A DNA stretch of 21,665 nt from a virus: the IMG/VR virus record IMGVR_UViG_3300031785_000064, positions 1-21,665 of that record; one strand, given 5' to 3'. Position numbers and translations under genes: made by a program. Below are positions 1 to 21,535 of this stretch, piece after piece. Position 1 is the stretch's first letter. Each line of letters begins with the position of its first letter. The notes beneath the pieces were generated by a model, which did not search any database, was not told the DNA's origin, and saw nothing but the letters and a program-made list of their open reading frames with translations.

Positions 1-3000
1 AACAAACTGATTTGCGCTGCCCGGAGTAATTCTAGCTTCATCAAAAGCTTTATACAGCGCCTTAAGTTTACCTTCTTTAATAGCTTGATTATAATCAGCC
101 TCTTGAATCCGTTGTATAGCAATCTCAAGACTTTCCCCTGGTTGCGCAAGTATGTAACGAGCAGTAAGTTCTGCTTCTTTTTCGTCCATAAATATATTGC
201 CGTTAAAATCTTTACGCGGCCGACCAGTTTCAGGGTCATTCATCAAGAAGTCTATAAATTCATCAATACGCTGTTCAATAGCAGATTCCGACAGCGCACG
301 GCCGCCTCCAAAGTTTTTACGTTCACGTATTTGTAGGTACTGGTTTCCGTCTGGATCTTTGTTGTACTCGAACGCTTCTTTATATAAAGCGCGTAACTCC
401 TTAGCTTCGCGGGTGCTAAGTTGTTCTGTTGGTATTGTTTCATCTTCAACTTCCAACATTATTTTTTCTATGCGTTCAGAAGTCCATGAGTTTTCACCGG
501 AGCCAGTATCTATACCAAGGATGTCTACCATCTTATTGGTAAAGTATGCTTCTTTTGCCGGTGCTTCTTGGAGCATCCCACGTAACCCGGCTTTGCCAGC
601 GTCAGCCTGGAAAAAAGCTGCAATAGCTTGGCCAGCGGGCCCCATAAATTGAAGGCGGGCGTTTGCGGTAGAAATAAACTTTTTATAAAAACCTGTTGTC
701 TTACTAGCGTACGCTTTGTTACCGGCGCGCGTAGCTTTTTTTATCCAGTCATTATCGATAGCGTTAATTAAATCGCGGGACTCTATACGTTGTGAAGCAC
801 TCAAATACTGCCCCGTAGTGTCCTTACGTTGTACATTGCGTTTTTTATTCGTTGCAACAACGTCATCCATATACGTCTTAAAGAAACGGTCTTGTTTAAA
901 ACGGCCACCAAGAGCACGATTAACGGCAGCAAAGAATCTTTTTAGACGCCCAGCTATTCGTTTAAATTTAGACTGTGTACCGTCAGTAGCTTTTATTGTG
1001 CTGTCATAAACATACTTACTAACTTGGTCAGAAAACCACTCTTCAAACCCGATACCTTCATCCATGTATTGGACGGGGGCGCCTTCGGCTGCGCGAGCTT
1101 TCTTAAACGAATCAAACATACGTTTACGTAGTTGGGGGTTAGCCTCGATTTTTGAAATTTCTTCAGAGAAAAAGACGTGGCCGATTTCATGCCCGATAGC
1201 CAATGCGGCGCCTACATCACTTTGTGCATACTTGCGGCCAAAAAGTTTTTCATTGACTACAACAATTGCTGACTGGCCTGCTAAAAATTCTACGCCTGCT
1301 GCGTTCTCTGGATTTTTTTGCATTTTTTCAACGCGTTTACTTAACGACTCGCGCGCCCAAGCAAACCTACCCCCAGGACCGGTATACGCATCAAAATTAT
1401 TTTGTAACTCCGTCAAAGTTATAAAGTTCATAGGTGTTGAAATACCAAGAATTTTTTCAGCCTGGGTAATTACTTGTTGCGCAGCTTTGTCAAAACTACC
1501 AAACCGTCTTGGTTCAGGCACTTGCTTACGTTTTTTCTTTAGAGGGTCTACAAGTTGTTTATGCCAGGCTGTTGCGGTAACTGACGGATCAGCAACTTGG
1601 CCCATGCGGGCCCCCTCTTCTACAACTAAACGTGTTCTAGGAGCCCCGCGATCTTCCACAGGGGTTTTACGTGTCTTTTGTTTTACTTGTACTTTGGGGC
1701 GACCTTTTGAGACTACGGGGTCAGAGACCTTAAGTCCTAGTTCAGACGCGGCTAAACTAAGCTTGCTATTAGCTAGAGTTCTCTTGCGTTGTTCTGCGCT
1801 ATTACGATTCCACCACTTGATACCGTTTAAAGCTTTTTTCATTGCATCAATAGATGACTGCGGCATACCAGTAACCGGTATTTCAACAACGATATCGGCT
1901 ACTGTAGATGGTGCTTCGTCTACATCGTCTTGCAGTATTTCAGTAAGAAACGTATTTAACCTATCACCAGATATATCTCGACTGCCAGCGCCGTTTAGCG
2001 TGCGAACGTTATTGTTAGCGATCCATTGCCTTACTTCTTTTGGATCAGTTTTCGGTGTTACAACGATATAAGGCTTGTTTAACTGTTTTGCAAACTTAAC
2101 GGTTGCCTTAGAACCCGGTGTTAAATTGCCTGGGTCTCGGACTACAATTACTGTTCCATCAGAATCTTTTACATTTTTACGTGTACGAACTGCATAATTT
2201 GCACTCTTAGATTCTTTTAATCCATATGCTTGCCCGAGAAGTTCCGGTTTGTTTCCACTTTCTGTTTTAAAACCTAGAGGCGCTGTTCCACCAGTTGAAA
2301 TACCTAAGTCAGAAGCAACGTCTAAAAAAGAAACGTCAACACCGTCCTGCCCACCTGATATTACTTTGACTAGCGGCTTCATTTCCGGTGCCGCTTCACC
2401 ACGCATACGAAGTTCAAAAAATGTAGTGTACGTAACGTCTTGAGTTTCGCCCTCAAACACGCCTGCTTGTTGAGCCCTGTTAAGCACCATGCCAGGCAAT
2501 TGCTCAGTTAGCCCAGGCACAGATTCATCCTCTACACCAAACCGATCGCGAGTAAGCTCTCTATCTTTTGCTTCTTCAAGCTGTAGTTGTCGCTCATTAT
2601 CAAGCTCATCCCTAAAACCTTCTTGCAGGGCTAAGCTTTTTAGTTCCGCGTACTCTTCTCTAATACGAAGCCCACCAACAGTTCCCTCAAGGTCCTCGCC
2701 TAAACGGTAGTATAGTTCGTCCCGAGACATGTTTGCTACCTCTACAAAATACCGTGCAGCAACATCACCAGCTATTTGATCATCTGTTTTAGCGTTTATA
2801 GCTTCAATGCTTTGTTCAGTACGAGTGTCTGCTATAGGAAATGGGTCTCGCATCCCAACAACTTCGCGTAAAGACATACCTTGATTACCATTGAAAAACA
2901 CAAAACGACTTAGTACATCTTCAGGTAATCTTCTAGTGCCTGCTAAAACTTCTGTTATATCGAGTGGCTGACGGCGGCCGTTGCTGTCTGTATAGAAGAA

Positions 3001-6000
3001 GCTATACCCCCGCATAACAGCTTCTTGCATACCGCGGACAAGCCCCGCTTTTGCTAACCTAGGATCACCTGTATAAAGAGGGTCGCCAACAAGAGCCCGA
3101 TCTTCGATAGCGTTCAATCGAATACCGCCGTTTATTAACGTCATAAACTGAAATTTTATAACCGGCTTACCGCCTTTTGAACCAATCTTACCGCCAGAAA
3201 TTTCAAAGGGAGACTCTTTTATAAATTTGTCAGTTTGATTAGAGCGTTCAATGCTGGCCATAGTGCTGTCAAAAACTTTTTCGCTTCTGTTAGCACCTTC
3301 TTTATCTACGCGATATCCTTCATCTACTATAGCTCGGTCTTTAGGCACAGCTCTGATTACTACTTTTACAGCACCAGGGTTGTTAGCAATAATATTGTCA
3401 GCGATGTTTTCATCGCCTGGTTGAAACTCTGCATTTATATTACCGTCGATTTTAAAATCTGGATAAAAATTATAAAGAGCTGACTCAGTGCTATCAAAGA
3501 TAAGGTCATTAAGAGCTTTCAACGCCTGATCGTTCATGTACTTAGAAAACTGTAAAAAGTTTTGTACAATCGCCGGGCCTTCTGGCGCATAGTGATTAGC
3601 TATACGTAACGTGTAATACGCTGCTGCGTTAACCGGTGTAACGATACGGTTAACTTTTTCTACCTCAGTAGTTCGTTGATTTGTGTCTGTGTCTTCGTTG
3701 GGTACAAATTCTGTTTCCGTAATAAACAACGGATTTTCTGGAGACGCTTGGATAACAGTTTTGCGTTTATCTGGATCTAATAAAACTGTGTATCCTTCGC
3801 CGTCTTTACCAAGTGGGACAATACCATTTTGTACTAACCGCACGGCGGGTGTTGCTTCAATCTCAGCTGCTAGTTCAGCACCTGTAACTTGATCTGCGGC
3901 TTCAGTAGGGTCAAGCTGACTTACATCATCCACAACACCGCTACGTTCTGAAGTAGCTATGTTACGTTCTGCACTATCTACAAAAGCTTGATCCGCTGTA
4001 TTAAGCTCTGGTTCGGCGGTTTGAGTAGCTGGAGCTCTTTGCACAGGAGTAGGATCAGCAGGGGCTGGACGTTGCGGCGCTAGCGGTGCGGGTGCGGGTG
4101 CAGCTTCGGCTTCGGGCGCTACACTTGGTGCGCTCGTCCCAAACAATCTAGGGTCACGCATCTCAGCCATAGCAATATCGTTCATACGATTTTCATAAGT
4201 GGCGGTAGATTCGCCCTCTAACTGTGCGTATTCAGTATGAGCTTTTTCATGCAGTTCTACAAAACGAACCCAGTCATCAGGCTCATTGATGTATTCATTT
4301 ACAAACTCGTCTGGTAAAGGATTGACTCCTTCAACTCTTGGGCTTTCCCAAGGTTTTTTGTCAAACTGTGATCGTAGATACTCTTCGTCAATAAATATTG
4401 TGTCGTCGCCTTTACGATAAAAAGCGCCGACAAACACGTCTGGTTTACCGGTGCTTTTTTTATAGGCGCCGCGTCGTACTTTTGCCGGTGCATCACGACG
4501 TGTTCTATTAAAATCGCGAACATCTGCCTGACCTTCAGTTGCTCGTTGTTCTTCTTGAGCCATAGCCGCAAGGTCTGCTTGAGTAACGGGTTGCGCGTCT
4601 GGTTCTGCAACAGGTGGTTGCTCTCTAACAGGCGGGGCAGTGGGCGTTGGCGTAGGTGCAGGAGTCTGAATATTCCGGTCGTTAAACAGCGGGTTGTTAG
4701 GATCAATCTGTCTGCCAGACGCTGTTCGGCGGCGTTCAGGATTATTCAGCGGCACTTGAGTTGTTGTAGGTGCAGGAGTAGGTGCAGGAGTAGGTGCAGG
4801 AGTAGGTGGCGATGGGCGCCCCATTACTTCATTGAGAAATGCAGCCTCATCTGCTAATAGGTCGGCGTTGCGCTCACGCGCTTGGGTTACTTCTACATCT
4901 TGCGCTACTGGGAACAACTCTCCTTGTACACCTTGCTCGGGTGCGTCTAAGTCTACAGTAGGTTGTTCGGGTTGCGCCGGAGCCGTACCAAGGTTGCGTG
5001 TATCAAACAGCTCTGCTTGGGTAGACTCATCAACAGCTTGCGAATCAGCTACTGATTGAGATGTCTGGTCAAGCATTTGACGAGCTTGCGCAACTACTTT
5101 ATCCGCAGTCTCTTTAGTGCTTCTGGCTACGGCGGGTATGCCACCCACAACGCCGCCCGCAGTACCAAACGCACCACCAGCTACAGCACCTAAGAACGCA
5201 GCCTCGCCTCTACGCAAGTTTGCTTCCTGAGCTGAGTAATTATCGTCAACACTTCTACGTTGTTGGATAAGTATTTCTTCTTGGGCTAGTTCTGCGGCGC
5301 CTTCTTTAGCAGAGTTTTTAGCTACCTCTTTACCTAAGTTAGCGGCAAATGCTGCAAAAACACCTTGGCCGTCTTTACGCGCTTTTTTTGTAGCTAGTTT
5401 TAGAAAGCTGCCAACCATAGCAACTTCTGTTGCTGTATCAATCAAAGCTATTGGAGCACCAATAGCTAAGGCTTGGCGTGCACGATCGGAGTCAAGCTCT
5501 ACGCCTGCTTCATCAAACTCCCCAAAAGACTGACCTGAGCCAGAGATGTAAGAAGGTATAAACGCGCCAGTTATTGAACCTGCTTTTGCAGCACTAGCTA
5601 CAGATTTAGCTGTACCGGCAGCTACCGCAAGTTCATCTGGGGTGAGAGTAATACCCTTTCTTTGTTTTTCTGCTATTTCTTTCAATAGTTGTTTAGCGGC
5701 TGCTTTGCCAGAGGTGTTCATCAACCCCCGCCCCAACACAGCTGTTAATCCACCTACACCAGCACTAGCAGCTGTTACTGTTGCCATAGGCGTAACCATA
5801 CCAACACCACTAGTAGTGAGGTCTAAAAGCCCAGAAAAGGTAGGGGCAGCAACGAAATCTTCAAAACTTATAGTACCTTCAAGTAGCTGACCACCTTGTT
5901 CTCTAGCAAGACGACCAAGTTCAAGGTTTTCTAAAGCTGCGTCTTCGTCACCAGACAGCGTATTAAAAATAGCCCCCATGTAGTCCATGTCGGCTTGTAG

Positions 6001-6234
6001 CGTACGCATACCTGATTGAGCACCACGTCGGAACGTCTCTGCAAAAGTATCTGCAGGGGCAACCTCATCAGATGTAAATCTTCCGGTATCAAGCAACGGG
6101 CTGTCTACAGCACGCCGCGACTCGGTAGTTATACCTTCCCTAGTACGTCTTTGGGTATCGAGTAGCGGTTCACGGCCAGCACTGTCGTCAATGAACCTAC
6201 TGTCGTCAATAAATTTAGTAATTTCATCAGCCAT
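1..6234 (-). CDS. Giant polyvalent virion protein, C-terminus outside window (at least 2078 aa)
   Basis: The frame starts at ATG 6234, 11 bases after the preceding gene, and stays open for exactly 2078 codons to the window edge, so the stop lies further left. By reading the translation: Gly/Ala-rich hydrophobic segments at about residues 135-175, 255-285 and 345-370; Pro/Thr/Ala linkers near 476-490; a metalloprotease-type motif HEKAH at 662-666; a YpsA/SLOG-like Rossmann domain at about 1289-1436 (SGGQDGVD, later DSDGTVIVV); a second zincin motif HEIGH at 1682-1686 with acidic residues EEWFSD about 50 residues on, a plausible third zinc ligand. Position after three smaller virion-type genes matches T7 gp16 or P22 ejection proteins; the hydrophobic N-terminal part could form a membrane channel. 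The domain mix fits the known class of phage polyvalent proteins delivered with the DNA. The ribosome site is weak (no clear AGGAG), so translational coupling is likely. Exact enzymatic roles are inference. Confidence 0.85.
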   Translation of the reverse strand, partial: MADEITKFIDDSRFIDDSAGREPLLDTQRRTREGITTESRRAVDSPLLDTGRFTSDEVAPADTFAETFRRGAQSGMRTLQADMDYMGAIFNTLSGDEDAALENLELGRLAREQGGQLLEGTISFEDFVAAPTFSGLLDLTTSGVGMVTPMATVTAASAGVGGLTAVLGRGLMNTSGKAAAKQLLKEIAEKQRKGITLTPDELAVAAGTAKSVASAAKAGSITGAFIPSYISGSGQSFGEFDEAGVELDSDRARQALAIGAPIALIDTATEVAMVGSFLKLATKKARKDGQGVFAAFAANLGKEVAKNSAKEGAAELAQEEILIQQRRSVDDNYSAQEANLRRGEAAFLGAVAGGAFGTAGGVVGGIPAVARSTKETADKVVAQARQMLDQTSQSVADSQAVDESTQAELFDTRNLGTAPAQPEQPTVDLDAPEQGVQGELFPVAQDVEVTQARERNADLLADEAAFLNEVMGRPSPPTPAPTPAPTPAPTTTQVPLNNPERRRTASGRQIDPNNPLFNDRNIQTPAPTPTPTAPPVREQPPVAEPDAQPVTQADLAAMAQEEQRATEGQADVRDFNRTRRDAPAKVRRGAYKKSTGKPDVFVGAFYRKGDDTIFIDEEYLRSQFDKKPWESPRVEGVNPLPDEFVNEYINEPDDWVRFVELHEKAHTEYAQLEGESTATYENRMNDIAMAEMRDPRLFGTSAPSVAPEAEAAPAPAPLAPQRPAPADPTPVQRAPATQTAEPELNTADQAFVDSAERNIATSERSGVVDDVSQLDPTEAADQVTGAELAAEIEATPAVRLVQNGIVPLGKDGEGYTVLLDPDKRKTVIQASPENPLFITETEFVPNEDTDTNQRTTEVEKVNRIVTPVNAAAYYTLRIANHYAPEGPAIVQNFLQFSKYMNDQALKALNDLIFDSTESALYNFYPDFKIDGNINAEFQPGDENIADNIIANNPGAVKVVIRAVPKDRAIVDEGYRVDKEGANRSEKVFDSTMASIERSNQTDKFIKESPFEISGGKIGSKGGKPVIKFQFMTLINGGIRLNAIEDRALVGDPLYTGDPRLAKAGLVRGMQEAVMRGYSFFYTDSNGRRQPLDITEVLAGTRRLPEDVLSRFVFFNGNQGMSLREVVGMRDPFPIADTRTEQSIEAINAKTDDQIAGDVAARYFVEVANMSRDELYYRLGEDLEGTVGGLRIREEYAELKSLALQEGFRDELDNERQLQLEEAKDRELTRDRFGVEDESVPGLTEQLPGMVLNRAQQAGVFEGETQDVTYTTFFELRMRGEAAPEMKPLVKVISGGQDGVDVSFLDVASDLGISTGGTAPLGFKTESGNKPELLGQAYGLKESKSANYAVRTRKNVKDSDGTVIVVRDPGNLTPGSKATVKFAKQLNKPYIVVTPKTDPKEVRQWIANNNVRTLNGAGSRDISGDRLNTFLTEILQDDVDEAPSTVADIVVEIPVTGMPQSSIDAMKKALNGIKWWNRNSAEQRKRTLANSKLSLAASELGLKVSDPVVSKGRPKVQVKQKTRKTPVEDRGAPRTRLVVEEGARMGQVADPSVTATAWHKQLVDPLKKKRKQVPEPRRFGSFDKAAQQVITQAEKILGISTPMNFITLTELQNNFDAYTGPGGRFAWARESLSKRVEKMQKNPENAAGVEFLAGQSAIVVVNEKLFGRKYAQSDVGAALAIGHEIGHVFFSEEISKIEANPQLRKRMFDSFKKARAAEGAPVQYMDEGIGFEEWFSDQVSKYVYDSTIKATDGTQSKFKRIAGRLKRFFAAVNRALGGRFKQDRFFKTYMDDVVATNKKRNVQRKDTTGQYLSASQRIESRDLINAIDNDWIKKATRAGNKAYASKTTGFYKKFISTANARLQFMGPAGQAIAAFFQADAGKAGLRGMLQEAPAKEAYFTNKMVDILGIDTGSGENSWTSERIEKIMLEVEDETIPTEQLSTREAKELRALYKEAFEYNKDPDGNQYLQIRERKNFGGGRALSESAIEQRIDEFIDFLMNDPETGRPRKDFNGNIFMDEKEAELTARYILAQPGESLEIAIQRIQEADYNQAIKEGKLKALYKAFDEARITPGSANQFV
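4766..4809 (-). repeat. 12-bp tandem repeat encoding a Pro-Ala-Pro-Thr linker
   Basis: Three perfect copies plus a partial fourth copy of the unit gtaggtgcagga (plus strand). Read on the minus strand inside the giant gene they encode repeating PTPA residues at about residues 476-490. Similar proline/alanine runs occur at about 4640-4665 and 4080-4105. They look like flexible linkers between the hydrophobic N-terminal part and the first metalloprotease-like domain. Confidence 0.85.
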
Positions 6235-19075: not shown

Positions 19076-19249
19076 AGTTTGTACTGACGCATCACTAGTA
19101 AAAAGTCTAGGAAAAATTTTTTAAAAATTTTTTTTCGTTTTTTACGTCAGAAACGCTGAGACATACCATCCCCTGCTGGCTGTCAGGGCGTCCCCGTCCC
19201 CCGATTGCACCATGGAACCTTGTTTTACATCCTACCCCGTGGGTCCCAT
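19076..19249. promoter_or_regulatory. Divergent intergenic region with AT tract and inverted repeats
   Basis: This region separates the leftward late block from the rightward small genes and should carry promoters for both. It holds alternating A and T runs at about 19111-19143, which are expected to bend DNA, flanked by CTGACG (19084-19089) and CGTCAG (19145-19150), an inverted pair. A 10-bp sequence CTGGCTGTCA at 19176-19185 is repeated inverted at 20097-20106. No unambiguous -35/-10 pair could be named. Confidence 0.55.
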
Positions 19250-19313
19250 ACGTCGAAAGCTAAAGCTTTCAACGTTTGACAGTTCTAGTGTCAAACAGAA
19301 AAAGGAGTTTGTT
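19250..19313 (+). promoter_or_regulatory. Leader module 1: UAAA-loop hairpin, TGACAGTT, ribosome site
   Basis: Hairpin GAAAGC-TAAA-GCTTTC (19255-19270), extended by ACGT/ACGT across a C-A mismatch. A second hairpin follows, GTTTGACA/TGTCAAAC (19274-19281 and 19289-19296, 8 bp). Then ACAGAAAAAGGAG and ATG 19314. The same order occurs at 19571, 20535 and 21321. Confidence 0.75.
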
Positions 19314-19583
19314 ATGACATATTTATCAGCAGTCACCACCGGGCTCGGCTTCTTCACAGGCGTCATGCTCGGATGGGTTCTCGTTGCAATCGCACTCTTC
19401 ACAGCCTACCTACTGGTCAAGTTCTTCAGCAAGCCTGAAGCACCTGATGTCACCGTCGAGGAGCGCAACCCTTTCGACGACTTCCTGCACCACTGGGACC
19501 ATATCCAGAACGAGCCAGCGTATGTACGTCGGAGCGAAGGCGAACAGCTTGAGTTCAACTTCAACCATGACGACAGAAGCTAA
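19314..19583 (+). CDS. Small membrane protein, first gene of the rightward block (89 aa)
   Basis: An 89-residue protein. Residues about 5-38 form one or two closely spaced hydrophobic segments (TTGLGFFTGVMLGWVLVAIA and following), then a short Lys-containing turn, and an acidic, aromatic C-terminus (NPFDDFLHHWDHI, ending NFNHDDRS) that would face the cytoplasm if the basic turn stays inside. I chose ATG 19314 because AAAGGAG stands seven bases before it; a longer reading from 19212 would run through the hairpin leader. Codons favour C in third position, unlike the virion genes on the other strand. The TAA stop forms the loop of the next hairpin. No known family; early phage membrane proteins often affect the host envelope or superinfection, which is only a possibility here. 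Confidence 0.8.
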   Translation: MTYLSAVTTGLGFFTGVMLGWVLVAIALFTAYLLVKFFSKPEAPDVTVEERNPFDDFLHHWDHIQNEPAYVRRSEGEQLEFNFNHDDRS

Positions 19584-19633
19584 AGCTTCCGTCGTCTGTC
19601 AATTCTTTTGCCTAGACAGAAAAGGAGATTGTT
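19571..19633 (+). promoter_or_regulatory. Leader module 2: UAAA-loop hairpin and ribosome site
   Basis: GAAGC-TAAA-GCTTC (19576-19589), extended outward by CGAC/GTCG across an A-C mismatch. The TAA in the loop is the stop codon of the preceding gene. A second pairing, TCTGTC (19595-19600) with GACAGA (19615-19620), ends directly before AAAGGAG. Start ATG is at 19634. Confidence 0.75.
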
Positions 19634-19825
19634 ATGGCGAAATATAAAGTATCCGTACCTCGGGTATGGAAATCGGATGGTAAAGAGAAGACCAGCTGGA
19701 AAGACCTCGGTCTTGCCATGGATGCCAAGAACGGTATCCGGGTCAATCTTAACTTTATGCCGTTGGTCAAGGATGGTGAACCTGAGTCTATCTTCTTGTT
19801 CCCCATCGAGAGTAAGGAGGAGTAA
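19634..19825 (+). CDS. Small beta-rich phage protein of unknown function (63 aa)
   Basis: A 63-residue protein that appears to be all beta: KYKVSVPRVWKSDGKEKTSW, then a Gly-containing turn, GIRVNLNFMPL and ESIFLFPIE. The layout of an aromatic/basic first half, KTSW, and a hydrophobic last strand is familiar from small conserved phage and plasmid proteins, but I cannot name a family with confidence. AAAGGAG lies before the ATG, and it is followed after two bases by the next gene, whose ribosome site (AAGGAGG) lies in its last codons. Both are probably made from the same leader module. Confidence 0.78.
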   Translation: MAKYKVSVPRVWKSDGKEKTSWKDLGLAMDAKNGIRVNLNFMPLVKDGEPESIFLFPIESKEE

Positions 19826-19827
19826 TC

Positions 19828-20004
19828 ATGAAACTCTCAACGTTGCTAGCCCGTGGCTATAATGCAACCAAGGTAGTGGCTTCGGTCACTACCGCCGTTG
19901 CCAAGAATACAGCTGCGGAAATCAAATCAGAAGCTACTCGCCTCGAACGCGAGAAAGCCGAAAAGATTCTGGCTCAGTTAAACAAAGATGAGTCAGCGTC
20001 CTAA
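19828..20004 (+). CDS. Small helical charged protein (58 aa)
   Basis: This 58-residue gene starts at ATG 19828 after an AAGGAGG site and ends at TAA 20004. The first half is Ala/Val/Thr-rich and weakly hydrophobic (KVVASVTTAVAKNTA); the second half is a charged helix with heptad-like Glu/Lys/Arg (EATRLEREKAEKILAQLNKD). It may be amphipathic, lying on a membrane or pairing as a coiled coil. It is the last gene before a strong terminator, which supports the reading frame. No family recognised. Confidence 0.7.
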   Translation: MKLSTLLARGYNATKVVASVTTAVAKNTAAEIKSEATRLEREKAEKILAQLNKDESAS

Positions 20005-20013
20005 CATCAATCA

Positions 20014-20046
20014 GGGAACCAGCCAAGCGGTTGGTTCCCTTTTCTT
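20014..20046 (+). terminator. Rho-independent terminator
   Basis: An 11-bp stem, GGGAACCAGCC with GGTTGGTTCCC (one G-U pair), closes an AAGC loop and is followed by TTTTCTTCT. It stands ten bases after the stop of the 58-residue gene and ends the first rightward transcription unit. Confidence 0.9.
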
Positions 20047-20055
20047 CTCGAAAGT

Positions 20056-20088
20056 AAAAAGGTCGGCCTTTGGCCGTCTCTTTTTTTT
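20056..20088 (+). terminator. Second, weaker terminator
   Basis: CGGCC-TTT-GGCCG (20064-20076) is followed within a few bases by a run of T (20081-20088); an A run precedes it, so some termination from the other direction is possible. It may back up the terminator at 20014 and isolate the following non-coding region from read-through. Confidence 0.75.
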
Positions 20089-20103
20089 AGGGGACGTGAC
20101 AGC

Positions 20104-20164
20104 CAGGGGCATTGTGTGCTGTCAGAGGGCATCGGTTCACTGTTCTGGGGCATCGCTCAGATGT
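20104..20164 (+). repeat. Three direct repeats of a GGGCATYG unit, 20-21 bp period
   Basis: GGGCATTG at 20107, GGGCATCG at 20127 and at 20148, each followed by five or six variable bases and TGT. The period of 20 then 21 bp equals two helical turns, so bound proteins would lie on one face of the DNA. Confidence 0.7.
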
Positions 20165-20220
20165 TCATGATCCGTTCTCAACGGTCACCTGTCCCTGGTC
20201 CTCTGTCCCCGGACGACGGT

Positions 20221-20515
20221 CGTGGTACCACGAAAATACAGGTTCTGGTACACACCTGGTACCGAAAATGGTACACGCTAAACCCTTGACCGTGAACCGT
20301 AAATCGTAAACCACTAACCTTTGGTACCATTGGTACCACCACCACACGGTTTAGTTTTAGAAAACGGTTTATTGATTTTGTTTTTTCAACATCAAAAGAC
20401 CCCCCCTAAAACTGGTACCAGTGGTACCACTAAACCTTTAACCAATAACATCAAACACTTAATCATGATTCATTGCTGGTACACAGCTGGTACCGACCGG
20501 TACCAAGCGGTACCA
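20221..20515. repeat. Cluster of twelve GGTACC/GGTACA sites
   Basis: GGTACC begins at 20224, 20258, 20323, 20332, 20414, 20423, 20489, 20499 and 20509; GGTACA begins at 20247, 20270 and 20478. Three are 12-bp perfect palindromes: 20221-20232, 20411-20422 and 20420-20431. Neighbouring sites lie 9-12 bp apart, about one helical turn. A 21-bp unit at 20245-20265 recurs at 20476-20496 with one change. Confidence 0.85.
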
Positions 20516-20534
20516 CGATAATGGACCGTGGTTC

Positions 20535-20603
20535 ACGCTTCATGGCTAAAGCATGAAGCGTCTGACAGTTTATGTGTATATCAACAGAAAAAGGAGATTT
20601 GAT
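20535..20603 (+). promoter_or_regulatory. Leader module 3: UAAA-loop hairpin and ribosome site
   Basis: ACGCTTCATG (20535-20544) pairs perfectly with CATGAAGCGT (20552-20561); the inner C-TAAA-G closes the loop with one bulged G. Then CTGACAGTT, a spacer, ACAGAAAAAGGAG and ATG 20604. This is the longest stem of the four modules. Confidence 0.75.
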
Positions 20604-20678
20604 ATGTTGAAATATTATGATGGTTTGTTGGGCATCTGCTTACTGCTGCTGCTCATGGTTGGATTTGGAATCATATAG
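20604..20678 (+). CDS. Membrane microprotein (24 aa)
   Basis: ATG 20604 has an AAAGGAG site at good spacing and a full leader module before it. The 24-residue product begins MLKYYDGL and is otherwise one hydrophobic stretch (LGICLLLLLMVGFGII), enough to cross a membrane. The stop TAG is followed at once by the AGGAGG site of the next gene, as in a tight operon. No relative recognised. Such microproteins in phages can act on host membrane enzymes or on lysis, but nothing here shows which. Confidence 0.65.
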   Translation: MLKYYDGLLGICLLLLLMVGFGII

Positions 20679-20690
20679 GAGGAAGAAACA

Positions 20691-20849
20691 ATGTATGAAT
20701 TTCAAATAGCACTGGAACTAATGCGTGACGCAAGACGCTATGGCGTAACGAAACACGTACTACAAACGGCCCGTAAGTACCGGGAACAAAATGCAACCGC
20801 ATCTCTCTCAGATTGTATCTGGGAGGGATATTGTGAATGGGTGAAGTAA
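20691..20849 (+). CDS. Small basic/helical protein of unknown function (52 aa)
   Basis: ATG 20691 follows AGGAGG by about eight bases. The 52-residue product is helical, with a basic middle (LMRDARRYGVTKHVLQTARK) and an aromatic end with two Cys (SDCIWEGYCEWVK). The end overlaps the start of the next gene by 13 bases (or one base, if that gene starts at ATG 20849). Family unknown; the regular overlap and good ribosome site support a real gene. Confidence 0.7.
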   Translation: MYEFQIALELMRDARRYGVTKHVLQTARKYREQNATASLSDCIWEGYCEWVK

Positions 20850-21349
20850 TGAATAGTTTGGATAAAGCAATGCAACTTATGTTGCAGGAAAAAAGAAATC
20901 AGTTGTGGAAAGTGTCCGCACGTATGGACAACGCAATGATTGAAGCCTTTGAAAGTAAGGGTCTTAAAGCAAACGACTACATGGAGATCGATAAGTATAG
21001 TGGCTTCGGCAACATGCGACTCAAGCCAGGCGTTGAAGATGAACTTAGTTGGGAGAACCAAGTGAAGCAAGCAAAAGCTAATTGTCTGCACTTGCACACA
21101 ACCGTTCATGAATACGTCAAAATTAAAATGGCTGAGTCAAAAGAAGAGAAGAAGAATAGACCACCAGACGAAGAGATGTTGGACTGGGAAGTCGACATGA
21201 ATGAAAACGTGGGCATGTTGATGCATGAGTGTGAGCAGTTAGAGTTTGCTGCCGAGTACTGGAAGCGAAACTACTTTGACTTGGCACAAGAACATCATGA
21301 GTTATCCAAGACACACTGCGCGCCCAACTCTAAAGAGTTGAGCGACTGA
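20837..21349 (+). CDS. Helical protein of unknown function (170 aa)
   Basis: The largest gene of the rightward block. The start may be ATG 20837 (MGEVMNSL), with GGGAGGG about ten bases before it, or ATG 20849 (MNSLDKAM), which overlaps the previous stop as TAATG; I keep the longer form. The product is rich in Lys, Glu, Met and Asn; helical segments at about 5-45 and 80-160 (VKQAKANCLHLHTTVHEYVK; MLDWEVDMNENVGMLMHECE) are separated by a Gly-containing loop (YSGFGNMRLKPG). No enzyme motif or membrane segment is seen. The TGA stop lies inside the TGACAG of the next leader module. Function unknown. Confidence 0.8.
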   Translation: MGEVMNSLDKAMQLMLQEKRNQLWKVSARMDNAMIEAFESKGLKANDYMEIDKYSGFGNMRLKPGVEDELSWENQVKQAKANCLHLHTTVHEYVKIKMAESKEEKKNRPPDEEMLDWEVDMNENVGMLMHECEQLEFAAEYWKRNYFDLAQEHHELSKTHCAPNSKELSD

Positions 21350-21379
21350 CAGCTTGTATGTTGAAGAAAGGAGGATGTC
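21321..21379 (+). promoter_or_regulatory. Leader module 4: UAAA-loop hairpin and ribosome site
   Basis: CAACTC-TAAA-GAGTTG (21325-21340), extended by CGC/GCG across a C-A mismatch. It lies in the last codons of the preceding gene; then CTGACAGC, a spacer and GAAAGGAGG before ATG 21380. Confidence 0.7.
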
Positions 21380-21535
21380 ATGGATGACATTGACTGGCTC
21401 AACGAATTACTCGTTGAGCACAACATCGAACCAATCCGTCAAGCCGATGGGTTATGGAATGAGGGAGACGAATCACCGTTATGGGAAGACGTTCAATTCA
21501 TTTCTAACCTAAAGGCAAGACTAATCACTCGCTAA
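21380..21535 (+). CDS. Small acidic protein of unknown function (51 aa)
   Basis: ATG 21380 has an AAGGAGG site four to five bases upstream. The 51-residue product is acidic with three Trp (MDDIDWLNELLVEHNIEP, then DGLWNEGDESPLWEDVQF) and a short basic end (LKARLITR). No family recognised. Small acidic early proteins of this kind sometimes bind host enzymes or mimic DNA, which would be speculation here. Confidence 0.72.
   Translation: MDDIDWLNELLVEHNIEPIRQADGLWNEGDESPLWEDVQFISNLKARLITR

Follow-up and report, generated by a model that had tools for sequence, protein, structure and literature searches.

Covarying hairpins ahead of the early genes of a marine podovirus may be template-strand DNA signals resembling N4 promoters

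We analyzed a 21,665-base stretch of viral DNA, hereafter the window, which is the whole contig of IMG/VR record IMGVR_UViG_3300031785_000064 and comes from a marine, podovirus-like phage. Its leftward genes encode TerL, a P22-like portal (PF16510), capsid proteins, and a giant virion protein truncated at the left end. Its short rightward early genes begin at ~19.3 kb, and a BLAST comparison of the window with cultured phages returned no match. Our subject is a set of four hairpins lying ahead of these early genes, given here in base pairs (bp) and nucleotides (nt):

19250 to 19275, minus strand: hairpin 1; on the template strand ACGTTGAAAGC-TTTA-GCTTTCGACGT, 11 pairs including one G.T
19569 to 19596, minus strand: hairpin 2; 12 pairs on the template strand including one G.T
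20535 to 20561, minus strand: hairpin 3; 10-bp stem and a 7-nt center containing the constant TAAA
21321 to 21344, minus strand: hairpin 4; 10 pairs on the template strand including one G.T, overlapping the 3' end of the open reading frame (ORF) 20837-21349

A first-pass annotation, made from the letters of the window, had described four modular hairpins with a constant C-UAAA-G loop, three of them extended by a short outer stem beyond a C-A mismatch. All four places and their TAAA loops stand (19261-19264, 19581-19584, 20547-20550, and 21331-21334 on the coding strand), and copies 1, 2, and 4 are indeed C-TAAA-G hairpins of 5-6 pairs plus an outer stem beyond a C.A or A.C mismatch. Copy 3 departs from the description in being a single 10-bp stem around GCTAAAG, and since this stem leaves a 7-nt center, the common register fits only with a bulge. 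The window contains three perfect TAAA hairpins with stems of at least five pairs, as compared with a mean of 0.21 and a maximum of two across 200 dinucleotide shuffles. The motif CTAAAG alone is unremarkable (26 in the window versus 15.9 expected).

Each loop is followed in order by a TGACAG-like box, a ribosome-site motif, and an ATG, with 45-53 nt between loop and ATG. The box begins exactly 12 nt past the loop in all four copies:

19277 to 19284, plus strand: TGACAGTT box, 12 nt after loop 1
19314 to 19583, plus strand: early gene 1 behind hairpin 1, a small membrane-like protein, its start read by eye after a AAAAGGAG site
19597 to 19604, plus strand: TGTCAATT box, 12 nt after loop 2
19634 to 19825, plus strand: early gene of 63 amino acids (aa) behind hairpin 2, followed by a 58-aa gene without a hairpin of its own
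20563 to 20570, plus strand: TGACAGTT box, 12 nt after loop 3
20604 to 20678, plus strand: early 24-aa gene behind hairpin 3, read by eye; the same small protein occurs in the relative L006
21347 to 21354, plus strand: TGACAGCT box, 12 nt after loop 4
21380 to 21535, plus strand: early 51-aa gene behind hairpin 4, an ORF

In L006 the loop-to-box spacing is 12 nt in three of four copies and 13 nt in the other. The preceding coding sequence contains or abuts hairpins 2 and 4; the loop of hairpin 2 holds the TAA stop of early gene 1 (19581-19583), and the L006 counterpart of this gene stops before its hairpin. That the copies precede early genes agrees with their earlier description as a regulon-like set. 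Intrinsic terminators were ruled out, as no T-run follows any of the four hairpins. A sigma-70 promoter at the TTGACA of copy 1 was dropped for want of a -10 element. On the coding strand, no sigma-70-like site lay in the 250 nt preceding any hairpin (two sites in all versus 3.4 expected), and Rfam 15 gave no match in the window at its curated threshold.

Close relatives retain the hairpin design while its letters change. L006 and L005, whose TerL proteins are 91% and 98% identical to that of the window phage, each have four hairpins ahead of early genes. Coding-strand loops are TAAA, TAAC, TAAC (within CTAACA), and TAAC in L006, and CTCG in all four L005 copies. Relatives with unpaired stems would have counted against the first-pass annotation, but they keep the pairing. 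Seven of the ten copies were aligned without gaps in an alignment, A4, that replaced one in which MAFFT misplaced copies A3, B1, and B2. In A4, both sides had changed in 7 of 11 pairs, paired cells amounted to 79% versus 62% in shuffles, and the covariation score was 0.489 versus 0.171. No shuffle out of 500 scored as high, which bears out the claim of changed stems with kept pairing. Because the stems covary, the data support selection on the pairing, and together with the nearly fixed spacing to the gene they confirm that the four hairpins are real.

A covariance model of the copies, which the first-pass annotation had proposed, was trained on seven of them (four from the window and three from L006) and searched against 28 sources, where L084 and L095 are one contig. 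At E < 0.02 it recovered the four window and four L006 sites, plus two window sites on the other strand. The fourth L006 site, absent from training, was found at E 0.013. Other-strand readings of known places aside, nothing else in the 28 sources scored better than E ~1.

We then considered which strand folds. Hairpins were sought from 85 to 26 nt before each ATG with a ribosome-site motif, using a score symmetric for both strands. The early set comprised 89 regions of relatives (328 distinct scan windows) and the control 71 late regions (365 scan windows). Among relatives, only hairpins with identical cores were collapsed, and a single contig contributed several of the 89 regions, such that rows are not independent. 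Scan shuffles preserved base content rather than dinucleotides. At a threshold of 14 points there were 83 real hairpins versus 32 per shuffled set, so that about four in ten rows are expected by chance; at 20 points under a first, stricter scoring there were 27 real hairpins and none in shuffles (435 scan windows).

Early hairpins were asymmetric between the strands. On the coding strand, 30 of the 83 had T..C loop ends and five had G..A, counts that retain one T..C row in which window hairpin 3 is misregistered (TGGC), as well as a few terminator- or chance-like rows. The late control had two of each among 59. Mismatches of C.T outnumbered those of A.G by 59 to 19 in the early set, as compared with 14 to 30 in the late control, and shuffled early windows had the two alike (14.5 versus 12.4 per set). 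The early and late sets differed with Fisher p-values of ~1e-6 for loops and ~3e-6 for mismatches, to be read with the non-independence of rows in mind. The hairpins also cluster toward the start of the early side, in its first 5 kb: across eight long regions, a T..C or T..A hairpin occurred in 13 of the 64 early-gene windows lying no more than 5 kb from TerL and in 2 of 59 beyond. A reading of the TTC loops as UUCG tetraloops was dropped because its register was wrong.

On the template strand, the loops of relatives read GNA (GAA, GGA, GTA) or GNNA (GTTA, GTGA), their mismatches are G.A, and internal loops of TC/TC become tandem GA/GA. DNA structures with GNA loops or tandem G.A pairs are notably stable. 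In copies 1, 2, and 4 of the window, the C.A mismatch of the coding strand is G.T on the template, where the hairpin folds unbroken. With DNA parameters, the template fold of these copies is more stable by 1.7-2.6 kcal/mol (template versus coding: -9.2 and -6.6 for copy 1, -11.8 and -9.4 for copy 2, -8.4 and -6.7 for copy 4). The strands of copy 3 are equal at -10.1 and -10.3 kcal/mol, respectively.

The template-strand form resembles the early promoters of phage N4, whose extrusion depends on supercoiling by gyrase and on the single-strand binding protein of the host. Read from the N4 genome on the coding strand, these promoters are GTTGC-TTC-GCAAC, AAGAAGC-TCC-GCTTCTT, and AAGCTGC-TCC-GCAGCTT, one of which is P1 and the other two of which we take to be P2 and P3. 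The P1 assignment is based on the P1 oligonucleotide printed in PMC12633501. According to a review (PMC4496689), the N4 hairpin acts on the template strand, its free stem bases count for pairing only, and extrusion from supercoiled DNA requires a C:G closing pair and a loop with 5' G and 3' A on that strand.

Like P1-P3, the hairpins studied here combine a variable stem whose pairing is kept with a constant loop and a C:G closing pair. In many relatives they obey the N4 loop rule, with G..A on the template strand (TTC, TCC, and TAC on the coding strand). They also occur in several copies limited by position to the early end, at ~50 nt from early genes, as do P1 and P3 (~20 nt for P2). The N4 stem, a template-strand hairpin of 5-7 bp with most bases free, has its equivalent in the covarying inner stems of 5-6 pairs in copies 1, 2, and 4, whereas the stem of copy 3 is 10 bp. 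Unlike the 3-nt G..A loop of N4, the template loop of the window is the four-base TTTA, which keeps the closing pair and the 3' A. Template loops of L006 are GTTA in copies 2-4 and TTTA in copy 1, and thus obey the rule in three of four cases but with four bases. Further differences from N4 are the outer stem half across C.A, C.T, or TC/TC mismatches, the conserved TGACAG-like box, and the failure to find a cognate virion RNA polymerase (vRNAP) in the family sequences searched. Because of its loop and the missing enzyme, the window set falls outside the N4 vRNAP promoter class as tested, yet it may work alike.

Other phages and one plasmid offer comparisons. The closest cultured relatives found were Aeromonas phage phiA008 and Kochitakasuvirus KPP25 (L141). 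In phiA008 the first gene is preceded by GATGGC-TGC-GCCATC, TGC being an N4-type loop. KPP25, a distant relative in TerL and giant protein, has hairpins at the same place: two perfect 9-bp hairpins (24021-24041 and 24322-24342) lie ~50 nt before its first two early genes and are identical in all four aligned genomes of its genus. The Frpo promoter of the F plasmid is a single-strand promoter in which a folded single strand is the start signal for the first genes after entry, although it is much longer than the window hairpins and is read by host RNA polymerase. Hairpin promoters with stems of 4-5 nt and 3-nt loops are predicted before early genes of LUZ7, LIT1, and PEV2 (PMC3715699); unlike the window family, these are schitoviruses with a vRNAP. 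The literature searched placed N4-like hairpin promoters in schitoviruses only and yielded no report of such hairpins in the phage family of the window.

Since the T..C loops and C.T mismatches of relatives become G..A loops and G.A mismatches on the template strand, we favor folded template-strand DNA, and the match to N4 hairpin promoters argues for DNA rather than RNA. We therefore do not favor the RNA function claimed in the first-pass annotation. We give roughly even chances to the proposal that the elements are template-strand DNA hairpins marking early transcription starts in the manner of N4 promoters. In such a mechanism, entering DNA would be supercoiled or single-stranded, allowing the inverted repeat to fold, and a compact loop (GNA or GNNA in relatives and TTTA in the window), along with G.A or G.T pairs in the stem, would secure the template-strand arm. 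A polymerase would recognize the loop and begin RNA synthesis a set distance downstream, either at the TGACAG-like box or immediately ahead of it, and the resulting leader would extend ~35 nt before the ATG.

Several results weigh against this proposal. The window loop lacks the 5' G, A.C and G.T mismatches are unbiased by strand across the family (26 versus 32), and KPP25 has GGA loops on the coding strand, opposite to N4, and no mismatches. Among 30 aligned copies there is no conserved or dominant GG at the N4 start distance of ~10 nt after the loop. A scan of whole contigs for exact triloops found no such hairpin in several relatives; it is uninformative as to strand, since it covered both and a TNC on either reads as GNA on its complement. 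The enzyme was also elusive: a profile of 11 schitovirus vRNAPs gave a best E of 0.1 against 2169 ORFs from 23 family loci, and neither PHROG 2206 nor PHROG 414 matched any of 20 IMG/VR family records, although the N4 positive control matched both. ExDGxxxG, given as a vRNAP motif in PMC10654107, was present in each of the 11 schitovirus enzymes but absent from every giant and every ORF of at least 150 aa in the family. The profile and PHROG scans did not detect the vRNAP gene that is the hallmark of Schitoviridae. Because the contig ends inside the giant gene of the window and most other contigs are themselves incomplete, the enzyme may lie outside the sequences searched.

The covariation is equally expected of an RNA, and a position 45-53 nt upstream of the ATG would also suit a leader hairpin that stabilizes the mRNA 5' of the ribosome site, is processed there, or binds a phage protein. 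The KPP25 hairpins, in breaking the template-strand loop rule, are compatible with such a leader. We nevertheless judge it unlikely, as it leaves the strand bias and the likeness to N4 unexplained. We know of no RNA logic for T..C loops and C.T or TC/TC mismatches, whereas on the template these read as GNA loops and G.A pairs. Hairpin 2 and hairpin 4 each overlap the end of the gene before, and the searches reported above found neither a sigma-70-like promoter just upstream nor an Rfam match.

The surroundings of the hairpins contain other features. A GGGTCCC(A/T)A box lies 5' of hairpin 1 (19240-19250) and at the same place in L005, L006, L096, L099, and L108. The units of hairpins 2 and 3 are separated as follows:

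20013 to 20076, plus strand: intrinsic-terminator-like hairpins, separating the hairpin-2 unit from the hairpin-3 unit

Between these terminators and hairpin 3, the noncoding stretch 20220-20520 is dense in GGTACC and GGTACACA repeats and resembles an origin or iteron array. In relatives, versions with GTGTACC, GTGACACA, or GGTGCAC occur close to this position.

With such a stretch adjoining hairpin 3, a primase-helicase encoded by relatives, and no polymerase found in the family searches, the template-strand hairpin might instead serve in priming or as a replication start, or as a place where the ejected giant protein or a single-strand binding protein lands. This explanation shares the strand evidence with the promoter proposal. 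However, the hairpins are placed by the ribosome sites of successive early genes and the box spacing is fixed at 12 nt in the window copies, and we regard a role of this kind as improbable.

A special case of the promoter proposal concerns the giant protein:

1 to 6234, minus strand: giant virion protein, cysteine-free, 2078 aa, cut by the window end, at the position of the N4 vRNAP

As in N4, a ~643-aa protein precedes the giant, and cysteine is absent from six of seven family giants, including that of the window, and from the N4 giant. The N-terminal part matches vRNAP (hhalign E 4e-5, probability 70%), and PHROG 2206 matches the giants of phiA008 (E 3.5e-9) and KPP25 (E 0.007). The HExxH region (residue 1682 in the window giant) is in register with the N4 C1 domain, but weakly (E 0.012, probability 3.5%). 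The middle is poorly conserved and short; we found no polymerase motif in it, and that of the window giant had no match in IMG/VR. A PDB profile search of the C-terminus likewise gave no match, and AlphaFold models of two pieces were unusable (predicted local distance difference test scores of 45 and 43). PF00940 matched none of 27 records, but bacterial controls did not match either. Pfam and PHROG scans of large ORFs detected no RNA polymerase outside N4 controls, their matches being replication genes, tail fibers, and a tail tip. For StenR_269, the authors conjectured a vRNAP on the strength of a giant protein lacking cysteine (PMC10747016).

A vRNAP hidden in the giant, with vRNAP-like ends and a middle diverged past recognition, would fit the N4-like gene order, the N-terminal matches (hhalign, PHROG 2206), the weak HExxH register, and the scarcity of cysteine, but with neither ExDGxxxG nor another polymerase motif found, a poorly conserved and short middle, and both structure models unusable, we consider it very doubtful. 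Separately, the window giant contains a circularly permuted YpsA/SLOG domain (PF12694, E 5.5e-32; residues 1291-1435, window 1930-2364) that a Pfam scan did not show in the giants of two relatives. Family giants also differ at the N-terminus: among L083, L091, and L119, two begin with a lysozyme/transglycosylase-like domain (phrog_873) and another is without it.

To our knowledge, promoters made of DNA hairpins have been described from essentially a single phage group. It is possible, though we hold this only tentatively, that a large marine podovirus family distinct from Schitoviridae initiates early transcription at N4-like template-strand DNA hairpins that G.A pairs in stem and loop stabilize, read by an unrecognized kind of polymerase or by a host enzyme. 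If true, the same anatomy without a matching enzyme in an abundant uncultured family would imply either a new polymerase that reads hairpins or a novel role for that of the host. The loop and stem chemistry of the hairpins varies from genome to genome within the family, and their anatomy would offer a plain sequence rule for locating early promoters in marine phage contigs.

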